This document shows, piece by piece, positions 638-20,281 of a stretch of 20,990 bases of DNA; the first letter of the stretch is position 1, and every line of letters starts with the position of its first letter. Source of the DNA: a virus. The notes below the pieces were generated by a model. The model was given only the letters and a program-made list of their open reading frames with translations. It did not search any database and was not told the DNA's origin. A program made the translations under genes and the position numbers. The stretch lies in the IMG/VR virus record IMGVR_UViG_3300032006_000114, positions 1 through 20,990 of that record. One strand, given 5' to 3'.

Positions 638-1066
638 TTATACAATTAAATCTAAAATGGTTTGGAGTTTACCTTTAATTGCTTTATTGTTTAAAGTGTT
701 TTTTAATCCACCATGCAAATTTTTTGGCCAACACTCAAACGCAGTCCAACAATATCCAGAATGTTCCGCATTTAACTTAGGAATAAATTCATTTTCAACT
801 GCAATAAGATACGTATGAAAGTAAAACTTTTGATCATTTGAAGTAAACAATTCTAAAGGAATTACTTTTTTAAAAGTTGGTGTGTTACCAATTTCTTCTT
901 CAATTTCCCTTTTTAAACTTTCAAATGCCGACTCTGAACTTAATGCTTGTCCTCCGGTTAACCCCCATGTACCTCGTGTTTTTGCATCAGTTCTTTGCAA
1001 AAATAAGAAACGTTTAGTAGATGTGCAATAGAATAGAGCACCTGAACAGATTATATTTTCTTTCAT
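638..1066 (-). CDS. Nudix hydrolase
   Basis: Nudix enzymes split nucleoside diphosphates linked to another group, such as damaged dNTPs, ADP-ribose or RNA caps, using a divalent metal. The 142-residue product has an intact Nudix box at residues 39-61: G39, five residues, E45, seven residues, then REIEEEIG (53-60). The length is normal for a single-domain enzyme. T4 has a Nudix protein (NudE), but I cannot say that this is its orthologue, and the substrate is unknown. The gene lies downstream of gp14-gp15 on the same strand, with 30 bases between. A near-consensus sigma-70 promoter ends 5 bases before ATG, so the gene can be expressed alone and without a leader. No Shine-Dalgarno site is visible. 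It ends just before the shared terminator. Confidence 0.9.
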   Translation of the reverse strand: MKENIICSGALFYCTSTKRFLFLQRTDAKTRGTWGLTGGQALSSESAFESLKREIEEEIGNTPTFKKVIPLELFTSNDQKFYFHTYLIAVENEFIPKLNAEHSGYCWTAFECWPKNLHGGLKNTLNNKAIKGKLQTILDLIV

Positions 1067-1071
1067 AGTTT

Positions 1072-1100
1072 ATTATAACAATTTATAGAAATTTTATCAA
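1072..1100 (-). promoter_or_regulatory. Sigma-70-like promoter for the Nudix gene
   Basis: On the minus strand TTGATA (1100-1095), a 17-base spacer and TATAAT (1077-1072) make an almost perfect vegetative promoter. The -10 box ends 5 bases before the ATG at 1066, so the predicted transcript starts at or next to the start codon. The -35 box overlaps the last codons of gp15. The spacer also contains CTATAAATT, close to the T4 late box. Confidence 0.65.
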
Positions 1101-3760: not shown

Positions 3761-3767
3761 ATAAATA
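3761..3767 (+). promoter_or_regulatory. T4-late-like promoter box for gp13
   Basis: ATAAATA ends 5 bases before the gp13 ATG at 3773. With T4 late spacing the first transcribed base would be the A of the start codon. No Shine-Dalgarno site is present between box and ATG. It forms a back-to-back pair with the gp14 box. Confidence 0.6.
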
Positions 3768-3772
3768 TCAGT

Positions 3773-4534
3773 ATGTCAGAACTTCAAACAGGTCAACAAG
3801 AAATATTTGATTACGTAAAAAACAATCTAGGCGAGGGTATGATAGATGTGGAATTAGACCCAAAACACTATCAAACGGCACTAGAAAGAGCAATTAACAG
3901 GTATAGACAACGTAGTTCAAATGCAGTAGAGGAATCGTATGCTTTTCTTGAACTAAAAGAAAATCAAAATACGTATATCCTACCTGATGAAATTATAAAT
4001 GTAAGAAAATTATTCAGAAGAACAGTAGGTTCCAGAACTGAAGGTGGCGAAGGTGGTACATTATTTGAACCATTCAATTTAGCATACACTAACACATACT
4101 TGTTAAGAGCAGGTGCAACTGGCGGACTTGCCACTTATTTTGCTTTTGCAAGTTATCAAGAACTTGTTGGTAAGTTGTTTGGTTCATTTATTCAATTTCA
4201 TTTTGACGTTGCAACAAAAAAATTAACAATTACACAAAGACCGAGAGCAGACAACGAAACTGTGCTAATGCACACTGACAATTTTAGACCTGATATAACA
4301 TTATTCAAAGACATCTATGCAAAACCGTGGATTAGAGATTATGCACTTGCAGTATCAAAAACTATGCTAGGAGAAGCAAGAGGCAAATTTAATACTATTG
4401 CTGGTCCACAAGGAGGCACAACTCTAAACGGTGCTGAACTTAAACAGCAAGGACTTGCTGAAATGGAAAGATTAGATAACGAAATTGGCAACTTTGCAGA
4501 AGGTGGTACACCACACAGTTTTGTAATTGGATAG
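3773..4534 (+). CDS. 13: gp13-like neck protein
   Basis: T4 gp13 is the head-proximal neck protein that, with gp14, completes the DNA-filled head. The 253-residue product has the layout I know from marine T4-like phages: an N-terminal helical segment with DPKHYQTALERAINRYRQRS, a beta section with ENQNTYILPDEIINVRKLFR, then KPWIRDYALAVSKTMLGEAR followed by GKFNTIAGPQGG and a Glu-rich helix. T4 gp13 is somewhat longer (309). It begins the plus-strand operon; gp14 and gp15, which usually follow gp13 on the same strand, are here on the opposite strand directly upstream. Its TAG stop overlaps the GTG start of the next gene (TAGTG). Confidence 0.87.
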   Translation: MSELQTGQQEIFDYVKNNLGEGMIDVELDPKHYQTALERAINRYRQRSSNAVEESYAFLELKENQNTYILPDEIINVRKLFRRTVGSRTEGGEGGTLFEPFNLAYTNTYLLRAGATGGLATYFAFASYQELVGKLFGSFIQFHFDVATKKLTITQRPRADNETVLMHTDNFRPDITLFKDIYAKPWIRDYALAVSKTMLGEARGKFNTIAGPQGGTTLNGAELKQQGLAEMERLDNEIGNFAEGGTPHSFVIG

Positions 4535-5089: not shown

Positions 5090-5096
5090 TTAAATA
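5090..5096 (+). promoter_or_regulatory. Late-like promoter box for the 60-residue gene
   Basis: TTAAATA ends 7 bases before ATG 5104, a spacing close to that of several other genes here. It is a weaker match than ATAAATA. Confidence 0.35.
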
Positions 5097-5103
5097 CAAA
5101 CAT

Positions 5104-5286
5104 ATGGAAGAGTCAAGATATAAAAAATACGAAGATTGTAATCTAGATGAGTTAGAACAAATAGTTACCGACTTGGAAAATATGTCTATTAATGCATTAA
5201 AAAACAAAAAATTAGACATACGAAAAAAGATCCTAGGTGCGGTAAAAGAAGCCAAATTAGTGATTGAAAAACGTCTTAAAAAATAG
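5104..5286 (+). CDS. Small charged helical protein, unknown function
   Basis: The 60-residue product is rich in Lys, Glu and Asp and almost free of Pro and Gly, with a heptad-like spacing of Leu, Ile and Val in LDELEQIVTDLEN and in the second half, so it is probably an alpha-helical hairpin or short coiled coil. I do not recognise it. It lies 24 bases after the oxygenase and 12 bases before the dNMP kinase on the same strand. The promoter of the kinase lies inside its last codons. There is no signal peptide, membrane segment or Cys pair. Its codon use matches its neighbours, which supports a real gene. Confidence 0.65.
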   Translation: MEESRYKKYEDCNLDELEQIVTDLENMSINALKNKKLDIRKKILGAVKEAKLVIEKRLKK

Positions 5287-5292
5287 TATAAT
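5264..5292 (+). promoter_or_regulatory. Sigma-70-like promoter giving a leaderless dNMP kinase mRNA
   Basis: TTGAAA (5264-5269), a 17-base spacer and an exact TATAAT (5287-5292) are followed by 6 bases and then ATG at 5299. The expected first transcribed base, seven bases after the end of the -10 box, is exactly the A of the start codon. No Shine-Dalgarno sequence lies upstream of the ATG. Confidence 0.65.
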
Positions 5293-5298
5293 CAATAA

Positions 5299-5904
5299 AT
5301 GCTTATAGGAATAGTAGGACTAATAGGTTCTGGAAAAGATACAGTTGCAGAAAGACTAGTTGAAAAACACGGTTTTATAAAAGATTCGTTTGCTAAAAGT
5401 TTAAAAGATGCTGTAAGCTCTATGTTTAATTGGGACAGAAAAATGCTTGAAGGTAATACTAAAGAAAGCAGAGAGTGGCGAGAAAAACCAGATGCATTTT
5501 GGAGCAAACAAATGGGTAAAGAAGTAACTCCACGTTGGGTATTACAATATTTTGGTACTGAAGTTATGCGTCAAAATATGTATGATGCAATATGGGTTGA
5601 CTCTGTTATTAATAGATATAAAGGTGAACCAACTGTAATATCAGATACTAGATTTCAAAACGAAATTAAAACAATAAAAGCACATGGTGGAAAAATTATA
5701 TGTGTTAATAAAGGCCATTTACCTACAAGAGATTGGATGTGGGCACACAATTTTCATAAATCTGAATGGGATTGGATAGGCACTGATTACGATTTTGTTA
5801 TTGAAAATACAGGTACTTTAGAAGAATTATATGAAAAAGTAGACGACTTAATTATCAGCAATAAGATCACCAACACGCCAACCAAGTCTACGCACACTGC
5901 TTAA
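5299..5904 (+). CDS. 1: Deoxynucleoside monophosphate kinase (T4 gp1-like)
   Basis: T4 gp1 phosphorylates dNMPs to dNDPs to feed phage DNA synthesis. The 201-residue product starts with a beta strand and the P-loop GLIGSGKDT (7-15), followed by the KDSFAKSLKDAVSSMFNWDR block and the KESREWREKPDAFW region that I associate with marine-phage dNMP kinases. VISDTRFQNEIKTIKAHG in the second half fits the Walker-B and lid area of this P-loop kinase family. The length is near that of T4 gp1 (about 240). ATG 5299 is set by the promoter geometry, which predicts transcription from the start codon itself. Its last 19 codons, including the stop, overlap the minus-strand zinc-ribbon gene. Confidence 0.87.
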   Translation: MLIGIVGLIGSGKDTVAERLVEKHGFIKDSFAKSLKDAVSSMFNWDRKMLEGNTKESREWREKPDAFWSKQMGKEVTPRWVLQYFGTEVMRQNMYDAIWVDSVINRYKGEPTVISDTRFQNEIKTIKAHGGKIICVNKGHLPTRDWMWAHNFHKSEWDWIGTDYDFVIENTGTLEELYEKVDDLIISNKITNTPTKSTHTA

Positions 5905-20130: not shown

Positions 20131-20162
20131 CAAGGCCTTAATTGTTGACAGTTGAGGCCTTG
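20131..20162 (+). terminator. Hairpin after gp32, overlapping the next promoter
   Basis: CAAGGCCTTAA (20131-20141) pairs with TTGAGGCCTTG (20152-20162) over 11 bp with one T-G pair and a 10-base loop. It starts 14 bases after the gp32 stop. No T-run follows, so it is a weak intrinsic terminator and may instead protect the gp32 mRNA 3' end. The -35 box of the following promoter is in its loop. Confidence 0.5.
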
Positions 20163-20173
20163 TGTATTATAAT
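20145..20173 (+). promoter_or_regulatory. Exact consensus sigma-70 promoter upstream of uvsX
   Basis: TTGACA (20145-20150), exactly 17 bases, then TATAAT (20168-20173): both boxes and the spacing are the full consensus. Transcription should start near 20180, three bases before the ATG of the small gene at 20183. Its AAGGAG (20174-20179) lies between the -10 box and the start site and so would be mostly absent from this message. Confidence 0.85.
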
Positions 20174-20182
20174 AAGGAGAAT

Positions 20183-20281
20183 ATGAAAAACGAAATAAAA
20201 AAAATAATTGATTGGATATTATATAAGCAAATACCTGCTTGGGTATTAATTGCTGTAATAATCCTTTGGATTTTAATATAA
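20183..20281 (+). CDS. 32-residue single-helix membrane protein
   Basis: ATG 20183 opens a 32-residue frame ending at TAA 20279-20281. The first part is basic and amphipathic (KNEIKKIIDWILYKQ), followed by IPAWVLIAVIILWILI, a clear membrane segment running to the C-terminus. It sits directly behind the exact sigma-70 promoter, with AAGGAG four bases... to the ATG (20174-20179), and seven bases before uvsX, so it is probably expressed early with uvsX. I do not recognise a family. It is not similar in sequence to the 31-residue peptide on the other side of gp32, but has the same size and one-helix form. Confidence 0.6.
   Translation: MKNEIKKIIDWILYKQIPAWVLIAVIILWILI

Follow-up and report, generated by a model that had tools for sequence, protein, structure and literature searches.

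The deoxynucleoside monophosphate kinase (dNMP kinase) gene of this virus starts six bases past what looks like a complete sigma-70 promoter, which raises the question whether its mRNA begins on the start codon itself, and whether such leaderless messages are a wider property of the phage lineage. The window, i.e. the whole stretch of DNA analysed, is a 20,990-base IMG/VR virus record that carries genes of T4-superfamily type, including those for a terminase (PF03237, 2.8e-20), a gp32-like protein and a UvsX/RecA-like protein. Judged by the terminase, the window is closest, among named phages, to Pseudomonas phage PA5oct and its kin (53% identity). For comparison we used G001, a close relative on a 196,581-base contig whose dNMP kinase is 94% identical to that of the window, and the remoter long relatives G002 (138,715 bases) and G003 (121,819 bases). 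A search of bacterial genomes for a close relative, as a clue to the host, returned a single match, a 27%-identical protein in an unrelated bin.

On the plus strand, positions 5264-5301 read TTGAAA-AACGTCTTAAAAAATAG-TATAAT-CAATAA-ATG, exactly as given in the preliminary description. The -35 box TTGAAA (5264-5269) lies within the last codons of a 60-residue gene (5104-5286, plus strand). A spacer of 17 nt leads to the -10 box TATAAT (5287-5292), which abuts the TAG stop codon of that gene, and the gap CAATAA (5293-5298), lacking a Shine-Dalgarno motif, separates the box from the dNMP kinase gene (5299-5904; Pfam DNMK, 2.4e-15). Judged by hexamers at 16-18-nt spacing, this is a sigma-70-type promoter matching 11 of the 12 consensus positions. 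Sigma-70 polymerase starts about 7 nt past the -10 box, and the A of the ATG is thus the predicted +1; this placement is a prediction from the average distance between -10 box and RNA start, with which a 1-nt leader would be equally compatible. The start codon itself is certain on sequence grounds, since an in-frame TAA stands directly in front of it and the P-loop (GLIGSGKDT) follows from about residue 7 on; any other start codon for the dNMP kinase is ruled out by the same two features. The 60-residue gene is conserved in relatives and found no match in a Pfam search. It is preceded by a T4-late-type TAAATA (5091-5096, plus strand) located 7 nt before its ATG at 5104, a layout that is identical in G001, G002 and G003. 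Between 5284 and 5299 its stop codon and the dNMP kinase ATG share one frame, with only the -10 box and the six-base gap between them; this common frame is lost in five relatives with a 7-nt gap.

A scan of IMG/VR for the dNMP kinase yielded 53 loci, 51 of which combined a close-relative start with an available upstream region and were used; they represent 19 distinct promoters. The preliminary description had proposed comparing the spacing in related phages, and a gap of 6 nt (46/51) or 7 nt (5/51) was indeed kept in every case, placing the first T of the -10 box 12 or 13 nt before the ATG throughout. The -10 box is TATAAT in 43 and TATACT in 8 of the 51 relatives, and the -35 box is TTGAAA in 32, TTGCAA in 17 and TAGAAA in 2. 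Conservation of the -35 box is partly protein-driven, because the box overlaps the conserved last codons (IEKRLKK) of the upstream gene. No Shine-Dalgarno motif precedes the ATG in any of the 51 relatives. The gap itself occurs in 12 sequence versions, and in an alignment of 13 representatives it was the least conserved segment (mean column homozygosity 0.57, versus 0.62 for the upstream coding sequence and 0.83 for the -10 box, the latter value being depressed by one of the 13 rows that a 7-nt gap shifts by one base). That the length of the gap is nearly fixed though its sequence varies points to a constraint on the distance between promoter and start codon.

The Nudix hydrolase gene (638-1066, minus strand; Pfam NUDIX, 5.4e-12), likewise predicted to be leaderless, bears out what had been described for it, namely the same design with five bases between -10 box and the ATG at 1066. 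Its promoter (1072-1100, minus strand) consists of TTGATA (1100-1095), a 17-nt spacer, TATAAT (1077-1072) and AAACT, and includes a TGn extended -10 element. Among 54 distinct upstream regions of Nudix relatives, 45 show a gap of exactly 5 nt between -10 box and ATG, and 44 of these 45 carry a TTG (TTGATA-like) at 17 nt and 44 a TGn before the -10 box. L200 has identical geometry in largely different sequence. The remaining nine regions lack this sigma-70-type promoter, and seven of these (L173, L181, L203, L208, L213, L214 and L220) carry TAAATTATAGTA-ATG or TAAATTACTATA-ATG, possibly a late-type box at equal distance, in which case the promoter class would have been switched with the leaderless geometry kept. 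In the window, a strong hairpin resembling an intrinsic terminator (AAGGGCGGACTTAGGTTCGCCCTT, then TT) occupies 609-632, between a gene ending at 583 and the convergent Nudix gene.

Promoter-like matches as such are at chance level in the AT-rich window (87 found, 83.9 expected). Only three sites match the sigma-70 consensus in at least 11 of 12 positions, and all three have an ATG 4-9 nt past the -10 box; in 300 dinucleotide shuffles such ATG-proximal sites averaged 0.13, with a maximum of 2. We then counted boxes before the genes of G001-G003 and of five named phages (T4, Syn9, CBB, PA5oct and HTVC008M), with genes called by a simple script as the first ATG of coding-like open frames. TATAAT was found 5-8 nt before ATG 11 times in G001 (1.07 expected; p = 2e-8), 6 times in G002 (0.34 expected; p = 1.6e-6) and 7 times in G003 (0.79 expected; p = 1.9e-5), a 9- to 18-fold enrichment. 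These three genomes are related and the counts therefore not fully independent, but each is significant alone. At the same distance TAAATA precedes 28 of 215, 18 of 140 and 15 of 121 genes in G001, G002 and G003, with about 1 expected in each (17- to 21-fold), which supports the premise that late promoters in this lineage have a leaderless layout. In the window TAAATA stands at 5-8 nt in 7 of 20 called genes, for example at 3762-3767 (plus strand), 5 nt before the ATG at 3773. Shine-Dalgarno motifs in G001-G003 were detected before none of 24 TATAAT-led genes and 4 of 61 TAAATA-led genes, versus 177 of 391 other genes (45%).

A peak was also seen independently of gene calls: counted over any ATG, it lay clearly at 6 nt in G001 and G002 and more broadly at 7-8 nt in G003. 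When strong promoters were considered (TTG plus two of ACA, exact TATAAT), those nearest to the next start lay 5-8 nt away in G001 and G002; in Syn9 the distance was 22-26 nt, in CBB mostly 26-32 nt. This strict criterion gave no promoter near a start in G003. Each of the three long relatives encodes a gp55-like late sigma factor (E about 5e-7, 36% identity), which fits the existence of two promoter classes. In T4, the late promoters read by gp55 have an 8-bp TATA box whose distance from the start site is about one turn of the helix (PMC2988020), so that TAAATA at 5-8 nt likewise implies an RNA start at the ATG. Ten TAAATA-led genes were tested, and every one that could be placed in a named family is structural (terminase, tail tube, baseplate and virion proteins). 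TATAAT-led genes include those for a DNA helicase, an SbcC-like nuclease subunit, a phosphoribosyl transferase, dNMP kinase and Nudix hydrolase; they also include portal and head-closure protein genes, and hence not every TATAAT at this position need be an early promoter.

Taking together the anatomy of the promoter, its near-fixed spacing and conservation, the absence of a Shine-Dalgarno motif, the genome-wide enrichment and the gp55-like protein, all of which are properties of the sequences themselves, we read the site before 5299 as an early promoter of host sigma-70 type placed among late genes, at which RNA would start on, or within 1-2 bases of, the A of the AUG and be translated without a leader (probability about 80%). 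The dNMP kinase mRNA would then be virtually devoid of a 5' leader and lack a Shine-Dalgarno motif, and therefore the leaderless route, in which a 70S ribosome binds the 5'-terminal AUG, would apply. Leaderless mRNAs are for the most part bound by 70S ribosomes in this direct way (PMC9031893). The exact 5' end, use of the host polymerase, early timing and leaderless translation are thus predictions of this reading. Given that the 60-residue gene is TAAATA-led, and given the functions of the TATAAT- and TAAATA-led genes, the 5299 promoter most likely serves to provide an enzyme of early DNA synthesis with its own early transcript inside a late cluster. The nucleotide-metabolism enzyme would be expressed early and independently of its 60-residue neighbour, for which the T4-late-type promoter would make a leaderless message of its own. 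The suggestion that the leaderless layout extends to host-polymerase promoters is supported by the 51 dNMP kinase regions, by 45 of the 54 Nudix regions and by the TATAAT enrichment, and for the lineage as a whole leaderless transcription is strongly indicated.

The alternative that survives best, though we consider it rather unlikely, is that the RNA start is displaced by a few bases from the predicted +1, leaving a leader of 1-3 nt and making these messages near- rather than strictly leaderless. The distance from -10 box to start is variable in bacteria, the start lying 8-14 nt from the second base of the box (PMC3160421), and the gaps vary here as well, with 7 nt in the five dNMP kinase relatives and 5 nt at the Nudix gene. 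The widest gap, 9 nt, is found at the third site that had been assigned the same design, and there only part of the claim stands. TTGACA (20145-20150), a 17-nt spacer, TATAAT (20168-20173) and AAGGAGAAT precede the ATG at 20183 of a gene for a 32-residue membrane-like peptide (20183-20281, plus strand) located 5' of the uvsX-like gene, in agreement with the nine bases described, but with a start 7 nt past the -10 box the leader would be about 3 nt long rather than absent. This leader would not include the Shine-Dalgarno-like AAGGAG contained in AAGGAGAAT. In relatives the promoter at this site is conserved and the next gene varies, being a small peptide gene or uvsX itself; the gap is 5 or 6 nt in L225, L231, L232, L234, L237, L243 and L252. 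At the dNMP kinase gene, short leaders are opposed by the modal gap of 6 nt, with which the usual distance makes the A the +1, and by the loss of the AUG that a start at its second or third base would entail.

Considerably less probable is that recognition of the -10-like box takes more than the host sigma-70 holoenzyme, namely a polymerase modified or activated by the phage, as at middle promoters, or a gp55-type sigma factor on a variant late box. T4 has activator-dependent middle promoters, which combine a sigma-70 -10 box with a MotA box (TGCTT) near -30, and both the imperfect -35 boxes of some dNMP kinase relatives (TTGCAA in 17/51, TAGAAA in 2/51) and the structural genes among those led by TATAAT could be accommodated in this way. 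However, the -35/-10 spacing of 17 nt is specifically enriched: among 28 TATAAT-led genes with a gap of 4-9 nt, the window included, TTG stands at a 17-nt spacer in 13, and no other spacer length between 10 and 24 nt has it more than twice. Moreover, no MotA-like TGCTT is present upstream of 5287, in TTGAAAAACGTCTTAAAAAATAG 5' of the -10 box, and the box TATAATCA is without the TAAATA core of the late motif (TATAAATA), nor does TAAATA stand 5-8 nt before 5299. With these boxes missing, a T4 late or MotA-type middle promoter was ruled out at this position; an activator unrelated to MotA may act on it.

Similarly improbable is that the dNMP kinase is made mainly by read-through from the 60-residue gene, with termination and reinitiation over the 12-nt intergenic gap, the promoter being weak or secondary. 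The TAG stop codon just 12 nt before the ATG and, in the window, in frame with it would suit such coupling, as would the presence of TAG before the -10 box in 51/51 relatives and the late-type promoter that the 60-residue gene has of its own. But coupling needs no TATAAT, no gap of near-fixed length and variable sequence and no -35 box at 17 nt. In addition, one locus (L029) has another gene upstream and yet retains TTGAAA-17-TATACT-6-ATG, and the architecture recurs elsewhere, at the Nudix gene. Promoter-driven and read-through expression of the dNMP kinase can coexist at different times. A chance match in AT-rich sequence, for which the overall chance-level number of promoter-like matches might speak, is practically out of the question and was rejected on the grounds of dNMP kinase and Nudix conservation, the shuffles and the genome-wide enrichment.

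If RNA starts at the start codon in both classes, this marine lineage would use one architecture beside sigma-70 promoters and beside gp55-type late promoters, with about 45% of the other genes carrying Shine-Dalgarno motifs. We tentatively extend this to a whole marine T4-superfamily lineage in which leaderless mRNAs arise from both promoter classes. Genes next to a promoter would then begin with a 5'-AUG whatever their temporal class, and distal genes would use Shine-Dalgarno motifs, a generalization to which we give somewhat less than even odds. If true, leaderless initiation would be a phage-wide strategy, e.g. for viral translation to continue during a shortage of initiation factors or 30S subunits. 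T4-type phages are not usually pictured as employing leaderless initiation, and a gene finder that relies on Shine-Dalgarno motifs can put such starts in the wrong place; in uncultured ocean viruses, a rule of TATAAT or TAAATA at 5-8 nt would serve to assign both temporal class and start codons. The two promoter types at a common 5-8-nt distance make leaderless translation in lytic phages testable.

The layout resembles several known systems without coinciding with any of them. The leaderless mRNA of phage lambda is the cI transcript from PRM, and as predicted here it is a phage transcript that begins at the start codon behind a host sigma-70 promoter; in lambda this concerns one gene of a temperate phage, whereas here the layout is used across a genome. 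Leaderless initiation was first found in lambda (PMC3160421), and because leaderless genes, including that one, have long been known, the layout is not new in kind. Bacterial TA-led genes share with it the absence of a Shine-Dalgarno motif and a -10-like TANNNT about 10-12 bp before the start codon, the signal described for leaderless genes (Zheng et al. 2011, PMC3160421), and the first T of TATAAT 12 nt before 5299 falls in this range. They belong, however, to cellular genomes and make up more than 20% of genes in Actinobacteria and Deinococcus-Thermus, while the present cases are from T4-superfamily phages and have a clear -35 box and a parallel late class. Phage transcripts have been remarked in passing to be "often leaderless" (PMC5312081). 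In the literature on leaderless transcription in T4-type, SAR11 and myovirus phages that was covered, to the exclusion of most subscription journals, a dual-class layout was not found described.

Among the named phages, T4 has the gp55-read late box that the lineage shares, but TAAATA stands 5-8 nt before ATG in none of its 248 called genes, as compared with 12-13% in the lineage. Neither TATAAT nor TAAATA is enriched at this distance in the script-called genes of T4, Syn9, CBB or PA5oct, indicating that the layout is a property of certain lineages. In PA5oct the dNMP kinase gene adjoins the tail sheath gene, as it does here, but its upstream region lacks the promoter found here. The Pelagibacter phage HTVC008M (NC_020484) has TAAATA at 5-8 nt in 16 of 188 genes (1.46 expected), whereas TATAAT is not enriched there (1 versus 0.56 expected). 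Being in culture and showing the late half of the layout, this phage lends itself to testing. A G follows TAAATA in 13 of its 16 cases (TAAATAG); in the lineage it is mostly C or T.

A further feature was observed in the intergenic region between the gp32-like and uvsX-like genes. In the window an inverted repeat, CAAGGCCT-N16-AGGCCTTG (20131-20162, plus strand), holds the -35 box of the 20183 promoter in its loop and extends into the spacer. A classical terminator was not adopted as an explanation, since the stem is not followed by a U-run, which makes a plain terminator unlikely. An alignment of the hairpin is out of register between families and did not serve for pair counts. In the window (20131-20173) and in ten relatives (L225, L227, L229, L231, L232, L234, L238, L242, L245 and L252) the repeat is perfect over 7-11 bp, with TTGAC in the loop and the right arm in the spacer. 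Both arms vary in concert between relatives, and TTGAC and the 17-nt spacing stay constant, which suggests a selected hairpin fused with the promoter.
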